Source: Magnetococcales bacterium
GTDB lineage: Bacteria > Pseudomonadota > Magnetococcia > Magnetococcales > DC0425bin3
Assembly: GCA_015229045.1 (NCBI GenBank)
Contig: JADGCJ010000173.1
Span: forward strand, 1-6,755
DNA: 6,755 bases
Direction: 5' to 3'
This document shows positions 1 to 6,755 of the stretch, piece after piece. The notes beneath the pieces are model-generated. The model worked only from the letters and a program-made list of their open reading frames with translations, was not told the origin of the DNA and made no database searches. Made by a program: the position numbers and the translations under genes. The stretch's first letter is position 1. The number at the start of each line of letters is the position of its first letter.

Positions 1-370
1 AGCCCCGCTCCAGGGTTTGCAGCAGCTCGGCATTCTGGGTGCGTGCCCGCTCGTAGATGCTGCTCCAGAGATAGTCGGGGTGGATGCAATAGTGCATTTT
101 GCGGCGCATCTGCTTTTCGAGGGTGGGAATATCTTCGGCATTGTCTGCGTACCATACCGACAGCGGCGAGCGGCGGTCGTCCACTTTCAGCCTGGGATAG
201 TCCGGCCCCAGCTCCTTCTGGGCTGCGGCCTCGTAGTTGTCCGAAAGGTAGCGCAGGAACAGGAACGAAAGCATGTAGTCGCGGAAGTCGTCGGCGTTCA
301 TCGCGCCGCGCAGTTCGTCGGCGATGGCCCAGAGAGTCTTGCCCAGTTGGTTGAGTTGGTCTTTGGTCAT
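1..370 (-). CDS. hsdM: Type I restriction-modification DNA methyltransferase subunit HsdM (N-terminal part, cut by window edge)
   Basis: This is the start of the modification subunit, which with HsdS methylates adenines in the host recognition site and forms the core of the restriction complex. The first 123 codons are present and the rest lies beyond position 1. They begin MTKDQLNQLGKTLW and contain FRDYMLSFLFLRYLS (about residues 29-43) and HPDYLWSSIYERAR (97-110). This is the typical helical N-terminal domain of HsdM; the SAM-binding and NPPF catalytic motifs would lie further left. The start is the ATG at 370-368, which overlaps the prrC stop codon as ATGA. No strong Shine-Dalgarno precedes it, so translation probably depends on ribosomes finishing prrC. 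It is the last visible gene of the hsdR-hsdS-rhuM'-prrC-hsdM run. Family assignment is confident; integrity of the full gene cannot be judged. Confidence 0.93.
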   Translation of the reverse strand, partial: MTKDQLNQLGKTLWAIADELRGAMNADDFRDYMLSFLFLRYLSDNYEAAAQKELGPDYPRLKVDDRRSPLSVWYADNAEDIPTLEKQMRRKMHYCIHPDYLWSSIYERARTQNAELLQTLERG

Positions 371-1494
371 GCGCTCACACTCTCTTGTCGCGGTTCCGGG
401 AAGAGTTCCGGGTTGAACCGGTAATTGTTCATAAAGTCCCGCAGGATCTTGCGGAAGTATTCCTTGTTCTCCGGCAGCATCTCCTGGGGCTCAAAGAGGG
501 AATAATTCCCGTGGCTGAGCACGTTCACCAAGCGGGTGTGCAAAATGCCGTCCGGGTCGTCGCTGTCCCTATTGATGCAGTCGGAGAACCTTCGGAAGCC
601 GTGAAAGGTGGCTGTCTTTTCTAGAAGATTGCGCAGGACATTAAAATGGTAGGTGTAAATCTGGCCCGATTCCGCCACTTCATGCAGCTGTTTGAGCAGC
701 GCTATGTGGTGGAAGCGCGGGGTATCGCCGGTGTCTGTCAGCAGGAATTGATCCGCCTCCTTGCCCAGGAAGTATCGAGCGGCGTTGCCCAGTTCGTTGC
801 ACATGACGTTGAAGAACAGATGATGGTGGGTCGAGATCACTGTTCTGATCTGTCCGTTGGCGCTCTTCAGCAGTTGCGACAGATGGCTGGCCACAGCGAT
901 GGCGTTGTTGTCATCCAGCGAGGAGATGGGGTCGTCGATATAGAGGTATTTGACCCAGCGGTAGGCCTCCTGCCCATCCACCGCCAACTGGGCGACGGCG
1001 AGGAAGAAGCACCAGACGAAGATATTCTCCTCACCACGGGACACCTTGATATGCTCGATGGTCTCGGTATTTTCCCCGGACTGGACTTCGCGGACGAAGT
1101 TCACCGCACCTTGCTCGTAATCGATAAAAAAATCGATGTCAGCATAGCGGCGTAATAGCGGTCGGATGCGGTTCTCCATCTCAAGCTCTTGCAGACCATC
1201 GAAGAAGCGCGAATCAGTATTCATGCGCAGCACGCGCCGGGAATCGCCCTCCAGGTCATTGTCCCAGTGGAACAGGTCTTCGGTGAAGGCGTTGAAATAG
1301 AGGGTGTCGCGGGTTGTCTCTTCATTGCCCTCATCATCTTCGACAGTTTTCTTGCCCAATTCCTTGAAGACCATGGAAAGGCGCGTTTTGCCTGTGCCGT
1401 TGAAGGCAAAGAGCAGGACATACTTCTTCGCCAACCCATCGCGCAGATGCCGAGCCAGTTCGTCTAGGCTGGTAAAGGTTTGGGGGCCAGTCAT
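367..1494 (-). CDS. prrC: PrrC-type anticodon nuclease with ABC-like ATPase domain
   Basis: This encodes a 375-aa suicide tRNase of the PrrC family; E. coli PrrC, about 396 aa, cuts tRNA-Lys at the wobble base. The ATPase half shows P-loop AFNGTGKT (30-37), NAFTEDLFHWDNDL (68-81), signature-like SRGEE (152-156), Walker B with D-loop YLYIDDPISSLD (183-194) and H-loop STHHH (221-225). The nuclease half shows LRNLLEKTATF, giving Arg288-x3-Glu292, then His328 in LVNVLSHGNYS. This matches the R-x3-E...H triad of E. coli PrrC (R320, E324, H356). Arg321-x6-His328 also fits the HEPN Rx4-6H motif. A Gly-Asp pair near 256-257 lies about where E. coli PrrC has its tRNA-recognition segment (from memory). 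The ATG at 1494 is preferred over a TTG at 1512: it gives an ATGA overlap with the upstream gene and has AAAGGG 8 nt before it. By analogy it is kept silent by the Hsd complex and released when phage inhibits restriction. Substrate specificity is inferred, not seen. Confidence 0.92.
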   Translation of the reverse strand: MTGPQTFTSLDELARHLRDGLAKKYVLLFAFNGTGKTRLSMVFKELGKKTVEDDEGNEETTRDTLYFNAFTEDLFHWDNDLEGDSRRVLRMNTDSRFFDGLQELEMENRIRPLLRRYADIDFFIDYEQGAVNFVREVQSGENTETIEHIKVSRGEENIFVWCFFLAVAQLAVDGQEAYRWVKYLYIDDPISSLDDNNAIAVASHLSQLLKSANGQIRTVISTHHHLFFNVMCNELGNAARYFLGKEADQFLLTDTGDTPRFHHIALLKQLHEVAESGQIYTYHFNVLRNLLEKTATFHGFRRFSDCINRDSDDPDGILHTRLVNVLSHGNYSLFEPQEMLPENKEYFRKILRDFMNNYRFNPELFPEPRQESVSA

Positions 1495-1769
1495 GACGCT
1501 GTCCCTTTGCAATTCTTGATCTGACTCTCCACCTTCCTGCTCACCGCACGCGGCCCATCGGTTTGAACTGTCAAGGATTCCTTGACAGTTGCCTGGGGGT
1601 CCAACTCACCATCGGCAAAGATGTTGCGCAGATGCAGGGAGATGTTCTGCTTGGTGGCATTGAACAGCTCGGCCATTTCCAACTGGGTGAGCCAAACGGT
1701 TTGACCGTCGGCCCGCAGTTGTATCCGGCTCTGGCCGTCTTCCGTGGCGTAGAGGATCAGGTCGCTCAT
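1491..1769 (-). CDS. Truncated RhuM-like protein (N-terminal domain only, 92 aa)
   Basis: The N-terminus (MSDLILYATEDGQ, then TVWLTQLEMAELFNATKQNI and TVKESLTVQTDG) is characteristic of virulence/RhuM family proteins. Their exact biochemical role is unknown, and they commonly sit inside type I restriction loci. Full-length members, as I recall, run to roughly 300 residues. This one follows the family through RKVE (78-81), where relatives continue with a Tyr/Asn-rich core, and then ends with an unrelated tail SQIKNCKGTAS. The WLTQ...MAELF...KQNISLHLRNI segment (26-50) looks like a helix-turn-helix, so DNA binding is possible. The gene fits the operon exactly: its ATG at 1769 overlaps the hsdS stop as ATGA, and its TGA overlaps the prrC ATG. 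A likely history is a deletion or prrC insertion that removed the last two thirds of rhuM and fused the stub to the prrC leader. It could be a relic kept for translational coupling or a working small regulator; the sequence does not decide. Confidence 0.8.
   Translation of the reverse strand: MSDLILYATEDGQSRIQLRADGQTVWLTQLEMAELFNATKQNISLHLRNIFADGELDPQATVKESLTVQTDGPRAVSRKVESQIKNCKGTAS
1566..1590. repeat. Perfect 25-bp palindrome inside the rhuM-like gene
   Basis: Two 12-bp arms (AACTGTCAAGGA and its exact reverse complement) flank one central base. On the coding strand it covers codons 61-68 of the truncated RhuM (TVKESLTV). No U-run follows on the minus strand, so it is not a usual terminator. 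It could be an mRNA hairpin about 70 nt before the prrC start, or an operator-like site. The protein motif TVKE-LTVQ is common in the family, so part of the symmetry may be forced by coding. Confidence 0.9.
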
Positions 1770-3085
1770 GCCCCCACCGCCTCCGGGCTGGGGAAGAGTT
1801 GCTGCATCAGCCCTTTTTTGTGGGTTTTGAGGGCATCGAGCTTTTTGGTATGGGCGGTGATCAGCGTGTCGATGGAGGAGAGGCATTCGGCGATTTTTTG
1901 TTGTTCGGCAGGGACGGGGAGCGAAGGTGTGTAGGCCATCAGAGCGTCGCGATTGACCTTGGGGATCTTGCCACGATCAGAGTGCTTTTTAGCATACTTC
2001 AAGAATTCATCGGTTAGGAGGGTACAGACAAGGTAATCCTGAAGAAGCTGAGATGTTTTTGGGCGAATCGGGTAAATATCGGCGCTGCAGATTCCTTTGA
2101 AATCCGGTTTAGCAACTTTGTTCAGCGCCGGTCGAATCTTCGAATAGAGGATGTAACTTTCATCAAAAACGTACTTACCGCTGATGAGATTGAGTTCTTT
2201 CGCTGTTCTAACGTTCAGGATTGCCCCAGTATCGCTCTCTATGTTCTCGCCACCCACATGCGGCGAGTCACAGTACGGCGGCTTAGTGGGGTCAACCTGT
2301 CCGGATGCAATTTCGACTACCCGACCAAGTGGTATTTCCTCCCACTCCCCCGCATCCTGAAACTCGGAAAAGCGCAGGCGGGGAACGGTTTCGCCCTCGC
2401 GGGGGAAGAGTTGCTGCATTAGCCCTTTTTTGTGGGTCTTGAGGGCGTCGATTTTGTCCGCCTGGGCGGCAATCAGGGCGTCGAGGGAGTAGAGGCAGTC
2501 GGCGATTTTTTGTTGTTCTTTGGTGCTGCTTGGGTAATGCAGTTTCACATTGCCTAGTCGGCTTGCAGAAAGCCCAAGCACCTTTGCACCTTGAGCCTCA
2601 TGCTGAATTTGTTTTCTGGTAGCCTCGGATGAAAACAAATAAGCGCCAAAACCTAAAGTAAAACCGGCCGCGTCTGGCCTCGCAAGAATAGTATGCAAGC
2701 CACAAACGAGCGGTACGTCACCCGTATCAATGATCTCAATGGCTTTTCCAACGTCCTCCATGTCCTCAGAAGCATCCGCAAAAACCATATCGCCAGGCCT
2801 GCAATAATTTTCTGGTCTAACCGCCGAATGAGATTCTCCTTCATTTATGTACGGAACGGATTCAGCATCAACGCGGAAGTGCAAAGAAAACTTCGTATGG
2901 ATATCGCCATAGTGAATATTCCTTAGAGACCCTTCGCCGTAATTCAGCTTGTCACGTGAAAGCGAGTTATTGCCTTTAAAGGAATATATTTCTGACATTG
3001 GTGATGAAGCCCAGTCCTCCCGAAACTCAGGAAACCGTAGTTTGGGCACCAAGGCCTTTTTCCCGTTTTTCATCGTCTTACTCAT
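1766..3085 (-). CDS. hsdS: Type I restriction-modification specificity subunit HsdS
   Basis: This 439-aa subunit chooses the bipartite DNA target for both methylation and restriction. It shows the classical two-part layout: PKLRFPEF (14-21), target-recognition domain 1 (about 22-188), conserved helical spacer EQQKIADCLYSLDALI...KTHKKGLMQQLFP (190-228), PRLRFSEF (235-242), target-recognition domain 2 (about 243-392), and a second spacer EQQKIAECLSSIDTLI...KKGLMQQLFP (394-432). The spacers are offset by exactly 204 residues. The two recognition domains differ, so an asymmetric target is expected, but the site cannot be read from sequence. The ATG at 3085 is chosen because it overlaps the hsdR stop (ATGAGTAA) and removes an unlikely ten-residue extension from a start at 3115. 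The stop overlaps the next gene as ATGA. Both recognition domains look more AT-rich than the flanking genes, which is usual for exchanged HsdS modules. No frameshift was seen. Confidence 0.95.
   Translation of the reverse strand: MSKTMKNGKKALVPKLRFPEFREDWASSPMSEIYSFKGNNSLSRDKLNYGEGSLRNIHYGDIHTKFSLHFRVDAESVPYINEGESHSAVRPENYCRPGDMVFADASEDMEDVGKAIEIIDTGDVPLVCGLHTILARPDAAGFTLGFGAYLFSSEATRKQIQHEAQGAKVLGLSASRLGNVKLHYPSSTKEQQKIADCLYSLDALIAAQADKIDALKTHKKGLMQQLFPREGETVPRLRFSEFQDAGEWEEIPLGRVVEIASGQVDPTKPPYCDSPHVGGENIESDTGAILNVRTAKELNLISGKYVFDESYILYSKIRPALNKVAKPDFKGICSADIYPIRPKTSQLLQDYLVCTLLTDEFLKYAKKHSDRGKIPKVNRDALMAYTPSLPVPAEQQKIAECLSSIDTLITAHTKKLDALKTHKKGLMQQLFPSPEAVGA
1791..1906 (-). repeat. hsdS conserved-region direct repeat, distal copy
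   Basis: This encodes the C-terminal helical spacer of HsdS. It aligns without gaps to 2403-2518, with 17 mismatches in 116 bases by hand count. The two best-matched stretches are the ends, 1791-1835 and 1888-1906. The offset of 612 bp is a whole number of codons, so recombination between copies would stay in frame. Confidence 0.88.
2403..2518 (-). repeat. hsdS conserved-region direct repeat, central copy
   Basis: This encodes the central helical spacer between the two recognition domains of HsdS. It is the partner of 1791-1906 at a 612-bp offset. It marks the boundary at which recognition-domain swaps or half-subunit deletions would be expected. Confidence 0.88.
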
Positions 3086-6000
3086 ATGCCGCCAACCCCG
3101 ATATTTCGCGCCCACCGGCCTGCTTCTTCAGAAAAGGCACCAACTCTTCCATCAATGCCAGTTCGGCCTTACTGCGGGCCTTCCAGCCCAGCTCCAGCGG
3201 TTCAAAAAGTTCACTCAACCGTTCACCGTCGAAGATCATGCGGTCTTGGATGCCAGCGACGAAGGCTTGCAGGGCGTCGCGTTCCAGCCGGTGCCGCTCG
3301 GCGAGTTCGCTGAGTTCACCCTCGGCCTTTTGCGCCTTGAAGCTCTGATAGCCGTCGCGGATGGCCTCTTCGCTAAGGCCTTTACCTGCCTCCAGGGTGT
3401 TGATGTAGGCGATGATATCCCGGCGTTCGTCCATCAGGTTGCTGTTGGCGGCGAGGAGGTTGATGAGCTGTTCGCGGCTCATGGTCTGCCTGCCGGGCTT
3501 TTCCTGAGTGAAACGGGCGACCAGGCCCATGATATAGTCGTAATCGATCATGGCCGAGGAGAAGAGGACGAATTCAAAGCTCAGTTGCTCGATGACCTCC
3601 CGGTCGTCGCTGGCCTCGTCACCTCTCTTGCCCTGCTGTGCCTTGAGACGTTGGGCGGTCTCCAGGTACATGCCCTTGAAGCCGCGCAGTTGGTCTTCCG
3701 GTAGGCGCTGCTCGATCAGTTCTTTTTGTTCGTTGCTCAGGTCGGTGTACTGGTCCAGCTGGGTCTTGAGACGCTGAACCTCCTTGAAGCGGTTGATGAA
3801 CTCGGCGCGGGCGGCGTCGCCCTTGAGGTTGTTGACCGCATCGGGGGTGCAAGGCTGTCCTTGGGCCTGCATGAACTCTTCCAGTTGCCGAACAGCGGTG
3901 TCGAGTTTGTCGATGACCTTGGGGGCCGGGTCCACCAGCCAGATTTCGCGGGAGCGATCGGCATCCTCGCCGGAGAAGAGGGCAATGGCCTCGTCCACGC
4001 TCTTTTCCTGGGCGCGAAAGTCGAGAATGTTGCCGTAGGGTTTGGTATCGTTGAGCACGCGGTTGGTGCGCGAAAAGGCCTGAATCAGACCATGATGCTT
4101 GAGGTCCTTGTCCACGTACAGGGTGTTGAGGTACTGGGAGTCGAAACCGGTAAGCAGCATATCGACGACGATGGTGAGGTCGATCTTGTTCTTACGCGGG
4201 AAGTCGCTGTTGGGATGCTTCTGATCCTTGATGCGCTGCTGCACGTCCTGATAGTAGCTGTCGAACTCCCCGAGCTTGTGGTTGGCGCCGTATTGGGCGT
4301 TGTAGTCGGCGATGATCTGTTGCAGCGCGGCCTTCTTCCGCTCCGGGTCCTGCTGGTTGTCCGCCCGTTCCTGAGGCAGGTCTTCCTGGAGCTGATTGAC
4401 GTCCCTGTTGCCCTCCGCCGGGGGAGAGAAGACGCAGGCGATGTTGAGCGGGATGAAGTCCGGGTTTTGCGCCCGGCACTCGGCCTGGGCCTGCTTGAAT
4501 AGCTCGTAAAAGTCAATGGCGTCGTTGATGGAGGCGGTGGCCAGAAGGGCATTAAAGCGGCGATGATCGGTGGCGGCGTCATGCTTGGCCAGGATGGCAT
4601 CGACCACGGCGCGCTGGGCCACTGGCCGAGGGGGCTTGGTGCTGCTCTTTTTTGCCTTGTCGCTGGCTGGCTTGTCGCCTTCGGATTTGCCCTCTGGTTT
4701 GAAATAGTCGATGTGAAAACGCAACACGTTGCTGTCATCAATGGCGTGGGTGATGGTGTAGGCGTGGAGCCGCTTTTCAAAGATGTCTTTGGTGGTCCGG
4801 TAGGAGCCAAGAGTGCCGTCGACCTGGGTGTAGCTGGCGTTCTCCTCGAAGATGGGCGTGCCGGTAAAGCCGAAGAGTTGCGCCTTGGGAAAGAACTCTT
4901 TAATGGCCTTGTGGTTCTCGCCAAACTGGGAGCGGTGGCATTCGTCGAAGATGATGACGACGCGCTGGTCGCGTAACGGAGCGAGCCGCTCCTTATAGGT
5001 GAGTTTACCCCTGTCCTTGTGCTGTTGGGCCTTTTTGCTGTTTTCATCCAGGGCCAAGCCGAGTTTCTGGATGGTGGTGACGATCACCTTGTCGGCGTAG
5101 TCCTCCGAGAGCAGGCGGCGCACGAGGGTTTCGGTGTTGGTGTTCTCCTCCACGCAGCCTTCTTGAAACTTATTGAATTCGATGCGGGTCTGGCGGTCGA
5201 GGTCTTTGCGATCCACCACGAACAGACATTTTTCAATGTCCGGGTTGTCCTTGAGCAGGGTGGAGGCCTTGAAGGAGGTGAGGGTCTTACCGCTGCCGGT
5301 GGTATGCCAGATGAAGCCGTTGCCACGGTTCTGGTGGATGCAGTCGACAATCGCCTGGACCGCATAGATTTGGTACGGGCGCATGATCAGCAGCTTTTGC
5401 TCGCTGGCGACGAGTACCATGTAACGGCTGATCATCTGGCCCAGCGCACACTTGGCCAGGAACTTCTCGGCGAAGTCGTCCAGGTGGGTTATTTTGCTGT
5501 TGTCCTTCTCGGCCCACTGGTAGATGGGTAGGAAACGCTCATCGGCGTTGAAGGCAAAGTGTTGGTTGTGGTTATTGGTGAAGTACCAAGTGTTATTGCG
5601 GTTGCTGACGATAAAGAGCTGCATGAAGCAGAGCAGCGTGTTGGCGTAGCCGTTTCCGGGGGCGTTGCGGTACTCGATAATTTGCTCCATGGCTCGACGC
5701 GGATTGATACCGACGCTCTTCAACTCAATCTGCACCAGCGGCAGACCGTTGATGAGCAGGATCACGTCATAGCGATGGTGGCTGTTGTCGGTGTTGATGC
5801 GCAGCTGATGGATGACCTCGAATTCGTTTTTGCACCAGTCCTTGAGGTTGACCAACATGTAGTGCAGCGGCGTTCCGTCTTCGCGCTCGATATAGCCGTA
5901 CTCGCGCAGTGCCTTGGCGGCCTGGAAGACATCGGCGTTGACGATCTCATCGCGCAGCCGGGCGAACTCGGCATCGGTCAGACAGACACGGTTGAGAGTC

Positions 6001-6119
6001 TCGAATTTCTGACGGAAATTACTTTCAAGTGAGGTGCGATCACGAATATCCGAGCGATAGGTGTATTTGAGATCGCCCAGCCTCTCAATCAGCTTTTGTT
6101 CTATTTCCTGTTCGGTCAT
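3078..6119 (-). CDS. hsdR: Type I restriction endonuclease subunit HsdR
   Basis: This 1013-aa motor subunit translocates unmethylated DNA with ATP and cuts it. The nuclease domain has YDVILLINGLPLVQIELK, placing Asp118, Glu132 and Lys134 as the PD-(D/E)xK triad, followed by Gln146-x3-Tyr150 (the QxxxY motif). Helicase motifs follow in order: WHTTGSGKT (271-279), FDECH (391-395), FGFTGTP (416-422), LLTGFD (655-660) and QAFSRTNR (680-687). The sequence resembles EcoR124I HsdR (about 1038 aa), a type IC enzyme; EcoprrI, the partner of E. coli PrrC, is also assigned to that class. A charged Lys/Ser/Pro linker lies at about 474-503. The ATG at 6119 is the only good start. Its Shine-Dalgarno is weak, and I found no convincing promoter in the short gap before it. 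The TAA overlaps the hsdS ATG by 8 nt. No disabling mutation was seen, so restriction activity is expected. Confidence 0.96.
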   Translation of the reverse strand: MTEQEIEQKLIERLGDLKYTYRSDIRDRTSLESNFRQKFETLNRVCLTDAEFARLRDEIVNADVFQAAKALREYGYIEREDGTPLHYMLVNLKDWCKNEFEVIHQLRINTDNSHHRYDVILLINGLPLVQIELKSVGINPRRAMEQIIEYRNAPGNGYANTLLCFMQLFIVSNRNNTWYFTNNHNQHFAFNADERFLPIYQWAEKDNSKITHLDDFAEKFLAKCALGQMISRYMVLVASEQKLLIMRPYQIYAVQAIVDCIHQNRGNGFIWHTTGSGKTLTSFKASTLLKDNPDIEKCLFVVDRKDLDRQTRIEFNKFQEGCVEENTNTETLVRRLLSEDYADKVIVTTIQKLGLALDENSKKAQQHKDRGKLTYKERLAPLRDQRVVIIFDECHRSQFGENHKAIKEFFPKAQLFGFTGTPIFEENASYTQVDGTLGSYRTTKDIFEKRLHAYTITHAIDDSNVLRFHIDYFKPEGKSEGDKPASDKAKKSSTKPPRPVAQRAVVDAILAKHDAATDHRRFNALLATASINDAIDFYELFKQAQAECRAQNPDFIPLNIACVFSPPAEGNRDVNQLQEDLPQERADNQQDPERKKAALQQIIADYNAQYGANHKLGEFDSYYQDVQQRIKDQKHPNSDFPRKNKIDLTIVVDMLLTGFDSQYLNTLYVDKDLKHHGLIQAFSRTNRVLNDTKPYGNILDFRAQEKSVDEAIALFSGEDADRSREIWLVDPAPKVIDKLDTAVRQLEEFMQAQGQPCTPDAVNNLKGDAARAEFINRFKEVQRLKTQLDQYTDLSNEQKELIEQRLPEDQLRGFKGMYLETAQRLKAQQGKRGDEASDDREVIEQLSFEFVLFSSAMIDYDYIMGLVARFTQEKPGRQTMSREQLINLLAANSNLMDERRDIIAYINTLEAGKGLSEEAIRDGYQSFKAQKAEGELSELAERHRLERDALQAFVAGIQDRMIFDGERLSELFEPLELGWKARSKAELALMEELVPFLKKQAGGREISGLAAYE

Positions 6120-6165
6120 TGCGAATACCCGTTTAATATGCCCAAGCTGCTTCAGAACCCCGATT

Positions 6166-6188
6166 AAAAACGGCCCGCGCTACAGGCC
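6166..6188 (-). terminator. Possible weak intrinsic terminator between the antitoxin-like gene and hsdR
   Basis: On the minus strand a 6-bp stem (GGCCTG / CGGGCC, with one G-U pair) and a 5-nt loop are followed by G and five T residues. It starts at the stop codon of the Phd-like gene and ends 46 nt before the hsdR ATG. The stem is short, so it may only attenuate read-through into the restriction operon. If it terminates fully, hsdR needs its own promoter in the remaining gap, where none is obvious. Confidence 0.4.
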
Positions 6189-6388
6189 TACCTTTTCTGA
6201 TTCAATTTGCTTCCCTCCCCGGGGGTGGGTTCCTCGCCACTGGCCTTGACCAAGCGGTCATATTCTTCGATCGCCATCACGACCACCACGGGCCGACCAT
6301 ACTTCTCGATAGCTACGGGCTCTGCCCGAGAGAGATCGATAAGATGTCCAAAGCCATTCTTGGCGTCGCGCGCAGAGATTCGCTGCAT
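6188..6388 (-). CDS. Phd/YefM-family antitoxin-like protein, apparently without toxin
   Basis: This is a 66-aa protein. MQRISARDAKNGFGHLIDLS, AEPVAIEKYGRPVVVVMAIEEYDRL (22-46) follows the Phd/YefM pattern: an N-terminal strand, a helix, then the 'pVaIekyGRPvvVvms.eeYerL' core. Such proteins bind their own promoter with the N-terminal fold and neutralise a toxin (Doc, YoeB/RelE or PIN types) with the C-terminal tail. The tail here is short (about 20 residues, GEEPTPGEGSKLNQKR) compared with Phd (73 aa) or YefM (about 83 aa). No toxin gene follows: the next gene, 68 nt away, is hsdR. A strong AGGAGG site 5 nt before the ATG and a plausible promoter suggest it is expressed. It may be an orphan antitoxin, an anti-addiction protein, or a repressor of itself and possibly of the downstream restriction operon. 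The family call is good; the role is inferred. Confidence 0.82.
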   Translation of the reverse strand: MQRISARDAKNGFGHLIDLSRAEPVAIEKYGRPVVVVMAIEEYDRLVKASGEEPTPGEGSKLNQKR

Positions 6389-6393
6389 GGGTT

Positions 6394-6399
6394 CCTCCT
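6394..6399 (-). promoter_or_regulatory. Strong ribosome binding site of the Phd-like gene
   Basis: AGGAGG lies 5 nt before the ATG at 6388, the best Shine-Dalgarno in the window, and it fixes this start. A CTCC about 7 nt further upstream could pair with GGAG in a small 4-bp hairpin; this is too weak to claim regulation. Confidence 0.8.
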
Positions 6400-6411
6400 G
6401 TAGTTGGAGCT

Positions 6412-6439
6412 ATTTTAGCCATTTCTCTCTGAGTCGCAA
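6412..6439 (-). promoter_or_regulatory. Sigma70-like promoter for the Phd-like gene
   Basis: On the minus strand, TTGCGA (6439-6434) and TAAAAT (6417-6412) are separated by 16 bases. They lie just upstream of the ribosome binding site and would give a leader of roughly 15-20 nt. An 11-bp interrupted palindrome GCTA-AAA-TAGC (6409-6419) covers the -10 box and could be an autoregulatory operator, as is usual for Phd/YefM proteins. The promoter may also feed hsdR if the hairpin at 6166-6188 leaks. Confidence 0.5.
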
Positions 6440-6459
6440 TGCTTTACATCTTCAAACCA

Positions 6460-6702
6460 TCAGGAAAATTTGCCTGTCAGACGGACATGAAAAACTGTCC
6501 CTTCAGGTTCCGGGGCGAGTTTTCGCAGCTTTTTTACGGAGAGGGATTCCGGCTGTCGCCCATCCAGAATGGCCTCCACCACATCGGGGCACCAGCAGGT
6601 CAGGCGAAGGGTGTGGTCAGGTCTCTGTAGCCTGCATCGGTGACTTGATGTACGGCGTTGCCTTTTTTTGCCCCTCTCCGCCCCCCCACCACCACCCGAC
6701 AC
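6460..6702 (-). pseudogene. Probable C-terminal remnant of a serine-recombinase-associated protein
   Basis: The only recognisable segment is PDVVEAILDGRQPESLSVKKL (about 6588-6526), read on the minus strand. It resembles the '(L)APDIVEAILDGRQP..LTL..L' motif that, from memory, ends many serine-recombinase-linked proteins. The usual continuation (a Pro-Leu-x-x-Trp-x-x-Gln type tail) is missing; the frame runs on with APEPEGTVFHVRLTGKFS to a stop at 6460. Upstream, the expected helix-turn-helix is not present, and the frame instead passes through a low-complexity GC-rich stretch (Gly/Arg/Lys-rich) from a poor GTG at 6702. I read this as an eroded gene end left by an old integration or excision event. 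The short motif could be coincidence, so confidence is moderate to low. Confidence 0.4.
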
Positions 6703-6710
6703 AAAAAAGC
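6660..6710 (-). other. G-rich tract flanked by T-run and A-run
   Basis: On the minus strand, 6697-6671 contains G-runs that can be parsed as four runs of three or more with loops of 7, 1 and 6 bases, which fits the simple G-quadruplex pattern. A T6 run (6708-6703) and an A7 run (6669-6663) flank it and can pair as arms. It lies within or just before the recombinase remnant. The rest of the end of the window (6711-6755) shows no recognisable gene, although one minus-strand frame stays open from 6755 to about 6606 without family resemblance. Confidence 0.45.
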
Positions 6711-6755
6711 CGATAATTCCTTGACCGGGAGGGCAAAGGGCAGGAAAATCCCCCA

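Follow-up and report, generated by a model that had tools for sequence, protein, structure and literature searches.

The minus strand of a 6,755-nucleotide stretch of Magnetococcales DNA (GCA_015229045.1, contig JADGCJ010000173.1, positions 1 to 6,755; hereafter the window) carries a full-length prrC gene within a type I restriction-modification operon. We consider it highly probable (about 0.88) that this gene encodes a latent anticodon nuclease of the PrrC family, kept silent by the EcoR124-like type I enzyme of its own operon, with tRNA-Lys as the likeliest target. The sequence family, the intact motifs, the operon with its gene overlaps and the lineage of the protein were observed directly, and the fold of the ATPase head was predicted by modeling; latency, triggering, cleavage and the tRNA-Lys target would follow by analogy to characterized relatives. 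The identification of an anticodon nuclease in an earlier note, made from the letters of this DNA, is sound, and the gene is an ordinary, intact member of the large, known PrrC family, not a new kind of system.

Homology places the protein in the PrrC family. The reading frame given in the earlier note (367-1494, minus strand, 375 aa, ATG to stop) was exact, and its product matched the PADLOC PrrC model with 467 bits (E = 9e-141), as compared to 490 bits for P0123, an Escherichia coli PrrC allele, against the same model. A protein search with the window PrrC returned at least 7999 proteins below an E-value of 0.001, not all of them necessarily PrrC. No NCBIfam PrrC model fired, and PDB sequence searches—with the single sequence and with a profile—found no relative, the lone matches (E of 0.26 and 0.53) being attributable to chance. 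At 375 aa and without a long insert, the protein lies within the size range of 341-416 aa given for PrrC in the available text of PMC2610378. To gauge conservation, we scanned one genome per species and retrieved at least 577 confirmed relatives of the locus; since the best 80 were kept as the locus set, this set leans to close relatives. The gene and its motifs, with their occurrence in these 80 loci and among the listed proteins of a third PrrC lineage described below, are:

367..1494, minus strand: prrC, 375 aa, ATG at 1494 and stop TGA at 367-369; PrrC-family anticodon nuclease by homology.
1381..1404, minus strand: Walker A, FNGTGKTR, residues 31-38, opposite residues 41-48 of E. coli PrrC; K36 in 79/80 loci.
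1027..1041, minus strand: ABC signature, SRGEE, residues 152-156; S152, R153, G154 and E155 in 80/80 loci each, E156 in 79/80.
910..942, minus strand: Walker B and D-loop, YIDDPISSLDD, residues 185-195; D194 (equivalent to E. coli D222) in 80/80 loci.
826..828, minus strand: switch histidine H223; 80/80 loci.
706..738, minus strand: stretch opposite the tRNA-recognition peptide 284-294 of E. coli PrrC; gap placement uncertain.
631..633, minus strand: Arg288, catalytic by homology; 80/80 loci and 120/120 listed third-lineage proteins.
619..621, minus strand: Glu292, catalytic by homology; 80/80 loci and 120/120 listed third-lineage proteins.
532..534, minus strand: Arg321 of the HEPN Rx6H pattern; 80/80 loci of the window lineage and 0/120 listed third-lineage proteins.
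511..513, minus strand: His328, catalytic by homology; 80/80 loci and 120/120 listed third-lineage proteins.

The residue numbers and length of E. coli PrrC used here come from the available part of PMC3014915, which also names a 15-residue 'PrrC box' for PrrC proteins. P0123, encoded on an E. coli plasmid, carries D222, D287, R320, E324 and H356 at the literature positions and was treated as an E. coli PrrC allele on that account. Its alignment with the window PrrC (35.2% identity over 355 aligned residues) keeps all motifs in register, pairing R288, E292 and H328 with R320, E324 and H356. Residue 86 of E. coli PrrC is presumably a functional arginine; P0123 has a phenylalanine there. Arg288, Glu292, Arg321 and His328 all stand where the earlier note had put them, together with the ATPase motifs it reported, and the alignment it had proposed as a check on the C-terminal half found the C-terminal third, whole triad included, in line with E. 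coli PrrC; the placement outside PrrC/RloC that the note had named as a refutation thus did not occur. The Arg-Glu-His triad as a set recurs in 80/80 loci. We also considered whether the window protein keeps the contact that Asp287 makes in E. coli PrrC: a Gly-Asp pair lies nearby at residues 256-257, a gap stands opposite Asp287 itself, residue 257 is Asp in 43 of the 80 loci, and nothing was concluded. Some window-type PrrCs (P0038 and P0113) bear an N-terminal extension of ~62 residues in the alignment.

The genes around prrC are those of a type I restriction-modification system:

3078..6119, minus strand: hsdR, 1013 aa; Pfam EcoR124_C 4.7e-68 and HSDR_N 9.7e-36, NCBIfam hsdR 2.4e-118.
1766..3085, minus strand: hsdS, 439 aa from the ATG at 3085; Pfam Methylase_S 1.2e-19 and PADLOC Specificity_I 1.5e-92, both scores computed from a longer GTG start at 3115.
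1491..1769, minus strand: rhuM remnant, 92 codons, comprising an N-terminal part of RhuM and a short tail; PADLOC PDC-S05 4.4e-36; ATGA overlaps with hsdS and prrC.
2..370, minus strand: hsdM, the first 123 codons, running off the window; Pfam HsdM_N 2.5e-17; spacing to prrC of -4 bases.

Read along the minus strand, the order is hsdR, hsdS, rhuM remnant, prrC and hsdM. Coordinates and bases agree on ATGA overlaps at the hsdS/rhuM, rhuM/prrC and prrC/hsdM junctions, suggesting coupled translation. The type I restriction operon described in the earlier note was thus recovered, with an HsdR bearing EcoR124_C, an HsdS that matches Methylase_S in two stretches, and the N-terminus of HsdM, although the rhuM remnant between hsdS and prrC had gone unlisted there and its 'GC-rich' label is generous for a window of 55.5% G+C. 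Judged by the EcoR124_C domain name of HsdR, the enzyme would belong to type IC, as do the known partners of PrrC (PMC2610378, available text).

The same arrangement is widespread among relatives. Taking the 80 loci and the window together, 72/81 sequences carry hsdR, hsdS, prrC and hsdM in that order; the remaining nine comprise six without hsdR, two without hsdM and one without hsdR and hsdS, likely explained by contig ends. The four-base overlap of prrC and hsdM occurs in 43/81 sequences, a further 24 keep the two genes within 60 bases, and 12 have them further apart. The hsdS-prrC spacing (-80 to 60 bases in 54/80 loci) was not used, since HsdS matches broken into fragments make part of its values artefactual. 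The nearest DNA found, locus L001 of another Magnetococcales genome bin (JADFZF010000222.1), shows 96.9% identity across 1906 bases. The match reaches the window edge at one end and breaks off within hsdS at the other, as would be expected if specificity genes are exchanged; the PrrC of L001 is ~98% identical to that of the window. On the IncC/IncA plasmid loci L081 and L087, genes for a TrlF-like ATPase and a putative RNA-binding protein sit between hsdR and hsdS of the same operon type.

Among characterized systems, the window shares with E. coli EcoPrrC/EcoprrI the ABC-ATPase head, the Arg-x3-Glu...His triad, an EcoR124-like type I operon and a prrC downstream of hsdS, whereas the EcoprrI gene order, hsdM-hsdS-prrC-hsdR, is opposite (PMC3014915, available text). 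More alike is PrrC170 of Klebsiella quasipneumoniae, reported in 2024 to defend against T1 and T7, to arrest growth on expression and to target tRNA-Lys; in the part of that report available to us, its system comprises four genes listed as HsdR, HsdS, PrrC and HsdM, and the protein is 35% identical to E. coli PrrC (PMC11555353). If the list reflects gene order, as we infer, PrrC170 has the same four genes as the window in the same listed order, at a similar distance from E. coli PrrC. Host and sequence differ, the rhuM remnant is extra in the window, and activity has been demonstrated for PrrC170. Judged by sequence, P0124, which is encoded on a K. quasipneumoniae plasmid and shares 64.1% identity with the window PrrC and 34.5% with E. 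coli PrrC, is very probably PrrC170 or a near relative; P0125, the other Klebsiella type examined, shares 53.6% identity with E. coli PrrC and therefore does not fit PrrC170. The window PrrC thus very probably belongs to a PrrC170-type lineage. RloC shares its ATPase motifs and triad, yet is 658-897 aa long with a zinc-hook/coiled-coil insert and is rare in restriction-modification loci (PMC2610378, available text), in contrast to the 375 aa of the window protein without such an insert.

To place these lineages, additional loci (L081-L111), drawn from sources that include 12/113 plasmid records and 4/85 E. coli records with a match, were probed with both kinds of Hsd proteins as queries. All nine E. 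coli-type PrrC loci that show both flanks have the order M-S-C-R (L088-L092 and L097-L100; letters denote hsdM, hsdS, prrC and hsdR), and all eleven window-type loci taken from plasmids or E. coli genomes have the order R-S-C-M (L081-L087 and L093-L096). Partial loci do not contradict this rule, and L110 gave no match. Every complete locus examined hence has the hsd gene order that goes with its PrrC lineage. The Hsd proteins of a window-type and an E. coli-type locus (L006 and L088) are 32% identical for HsdR and 37% for HsdM. In a tree of 38 chosen PrrC rows, with L001 left out, the M-S-C-R proteins fell on one side of a branch supported at 100/100, and the R-S-C-M branch received 89/87. As the program warns that two long branches meet, we make no claim on the branching order of the M-S-C-R and third lineages. 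In the literature on PrrC together with hsd or restriction, we found no statement that gene order separates lineages, a weak negative given its limited open-licence coverage.

The third lineage emerged at L006, a Halomonas bin and the only one of the 80 loci whose hsd operon holds two PrrCs from separate lineages. There, P0122 (357 aa) lies directly after hsdS and a window-type PrrC further on, before rhuM and hsdM (7193-8266 and 9995-11092 for the two PrrCs). P0122 matches the PADLOC PrrC model at 9.2e-95, is 35.4% identical to the window PrrC and typifies proteins of mostly 353-360 aa. Among the best 120 of at least 7041 P0122 relatives (P0246-P0365), the Walker A lysine and the Arg-Glu-His triad were present in 120/120, and an arginine at the Rx6H position in 0/120, implying that the PrrC lineages examined have the triad as their common core rather than the HEPN-style arginine. 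The earlier note had also leaned on the Rx6H pattern. R321-x6-H328 does satisfy the HEPN Rx4-6H motif in the window PrrC, yet the arginine is weaker evidence than assumed, since one PrrC lineage lacks it while keeping the equivalents of R288, E292 and H328. A third-lineage PrrC also occurs at L108 (1456-2520).

Drawing on these relatives, the window system may work as follows. PrrC would be made together with its type I restriction-modification enzyme and, as long as the Hsd enzyme is intact, would stay bound and silent. An infecting phage that blocks or alters the restriction enzyme would cause the Rad50-like ATPase head to switch state, and the C-terminal helical domain with Arg288, Glu292 and His328 would then cut a host tRNA, most likely tRNA-Lys, in its anticodon loop, so that translation, and with it phage growth, would stop. 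Cutting tRNA-Lys on the 5' side of the wobble base, lying dormant with Hsd proteins and responding to an anti-restriction factor are marks of PrrC anticodon nucleases. We take tRNA-Lys as the default target because it is that of PrrC170, which its gene list and its 35% identity with E. coli PrrC make the nearest of the characterized relatives. Several points weigh against this account. The HEPN fold of the C-terminus is weakly supported; the recognition peptide of E. coli PrrC lies opposite a stretch that is three residues shorter and of another sequence; the identity of P0124 with PrrC170 is not proven; and in L001 the prrC frame (1057-2067) stops early at codon 337, beyond His328 and with the triad retained, by what may be a real mutation or an assembly error, so that close relatives do not always have the gene intact.

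The divergent recognition stretch is also what would be expected of a PrrC-type nuclease with another tRNA target, and a review notes that the recognition sequence varies among PrrCs, so that substrates may vary (PMC3014915, available text); a trigger unrelated to restriction loss is likewise conceivable, as RloC relatives respond to DNA breaks (PMC12707154, available text). We nonetheless regard such a change of target or trigger as unlikely, if still deserving some weight, given that PrrC170 targets tRNA-Lys (PMC11555353) and that unpublished results cited in PMC2610378 have the Haemophilus influenzae and Streptococcus mutans PrrCs acting like the E. coli protein. Decay of the gene itself, in an operon losing accessory genes, would account for the stop in the L001 prrC and for a neighboring RhuM reduced to 92 codons. 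The window prrC is, however, full length with every checked conserved motif residue in place, and it differs from that of L001 by 5 nonsynonymous and 17 synonymous changes, which makes an inactive copy quite improbable. Least credible to us is a stand-alone Rad50- or RloC-like ATPase lying in the operon by chance: although AAA_13 (8.4e-17) is the sole Pfam family over the cut-off and Rad50 heads are the best structural matches of the modeled ATPase head (residues 5-264), ~113 residues from Walker A to the signature in a 375-aa protein leave no room for the coiled-coil/zinc-hook insert of RloC, the protein has the anticodon nuclease triad, and its gene occupies a conserved place in hsd operons.

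The rhuM remnant invites a further explanation, namely that PrrC is repressed or tuned by a small protein consisting of the RhuM N-terminal part, which would be made in translational coupling with prrC and serve as a working part of the switch. Its frame is open both in the window, where ATGA overlaps flank it, and in L001, which has the same short form at 95% identity. The remnant matches RhuM N-termini to about residue 81, and among 120 listed short RhuM relatives, 14 kept a native RhuM C-terminus with ends beating shuffles (P0133, P0139, P0150, P0160, P0206 and P0240 among them), at several different junctions that suggest repeated internal in-frame deletions. The tail of the window remnant, in contrast, matched RhuM C-termini no better than shuffles, 15/100 of which were as good. 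A tblastn search with the remnant left 69/80 loci without a match; the eleven with one comprise L001, one locus cut by a contig end and nine with full-length RhuM (~333-346 codons) beside prrC. Short frames are also common in general, with 18/128 RhuM matches in a draw of 369 genomes reading as frames under 160 aa (a hand count, contig ends included). Moreover, the remnant may change faster than prrC, differing from L001 by 5 nonsynonymous and 4 synonymous changes, a difference from the 5/17 of prrC that is not significant (Fisher p = 0.10). A dedicated regulator was hence rejected as the leading explanation and strikes us as very improbable; we read the remnant as decayed cargo with its overlaps kept. 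The association of RhuM with PrrC in restriction-modification loci was already noted in a 2013 HEPN survey (PMC3710099, available text). In another relative, P0143, the RhuM N-terminal part runs into a tail resembling an HsdS C-terminus (ALKTHKKGLMQQLFPS), possibly a recombination product of neighboring genes.

Elsewhere in the window, a Phd/YefM antitoxin gene lies upstream of hsdR (6188-6388, minus strand; Pfam 2.1e-11), for which no partner toxin was recognized, no dedicated toxin search having been made. An open frame at 6460-6753 (minus strand) runs off the edge, its part from 6702 matching no Pfam family. A tblastn search of a phage collection (50,697 records) found no PrrC relative and hence lends no support there to a phage origin of prrC.

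We return to the reading of the window gene as a PrrC-type latent anticodon nuclease silenced by its own type I enzyme. Because gene order follows lineage, the question of which Hsd subunit silences PrrC becomes testable by partner swap. One might speculate that at least three old PrrC lineages are hard-wired to two opposite hsd orders, and that the window's PrrC, encoded against HsdM where that of E. coli is encoded against HsdR, monitors the restriction enzyme from another side; it would then respond to phage anti-restriction proteins that leave E. coli PrrC untriggered, and in at least one operon, that of L006, two lineages would form a double sensor. We hold this extension to be doubtful. 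In an even draw of 369 genomes from one class, the E. coli PrrC query found 14 matches: 6 of the E. coli type, 6 of the window type, 1 of the third lineage and 1 weak match (4.8e-5) without adjacent hsd genes. The window contributes a clean and intact representative from an environmental bacterium to the PrrC170-type lineage, which in that draw is as frequent as the E. coli type, with 6 genomes for each, and the comparison identifies Arg-Glu-His, not the HEPN Rx6H arginine, as the residues invariant across the PrrC lineages examined.
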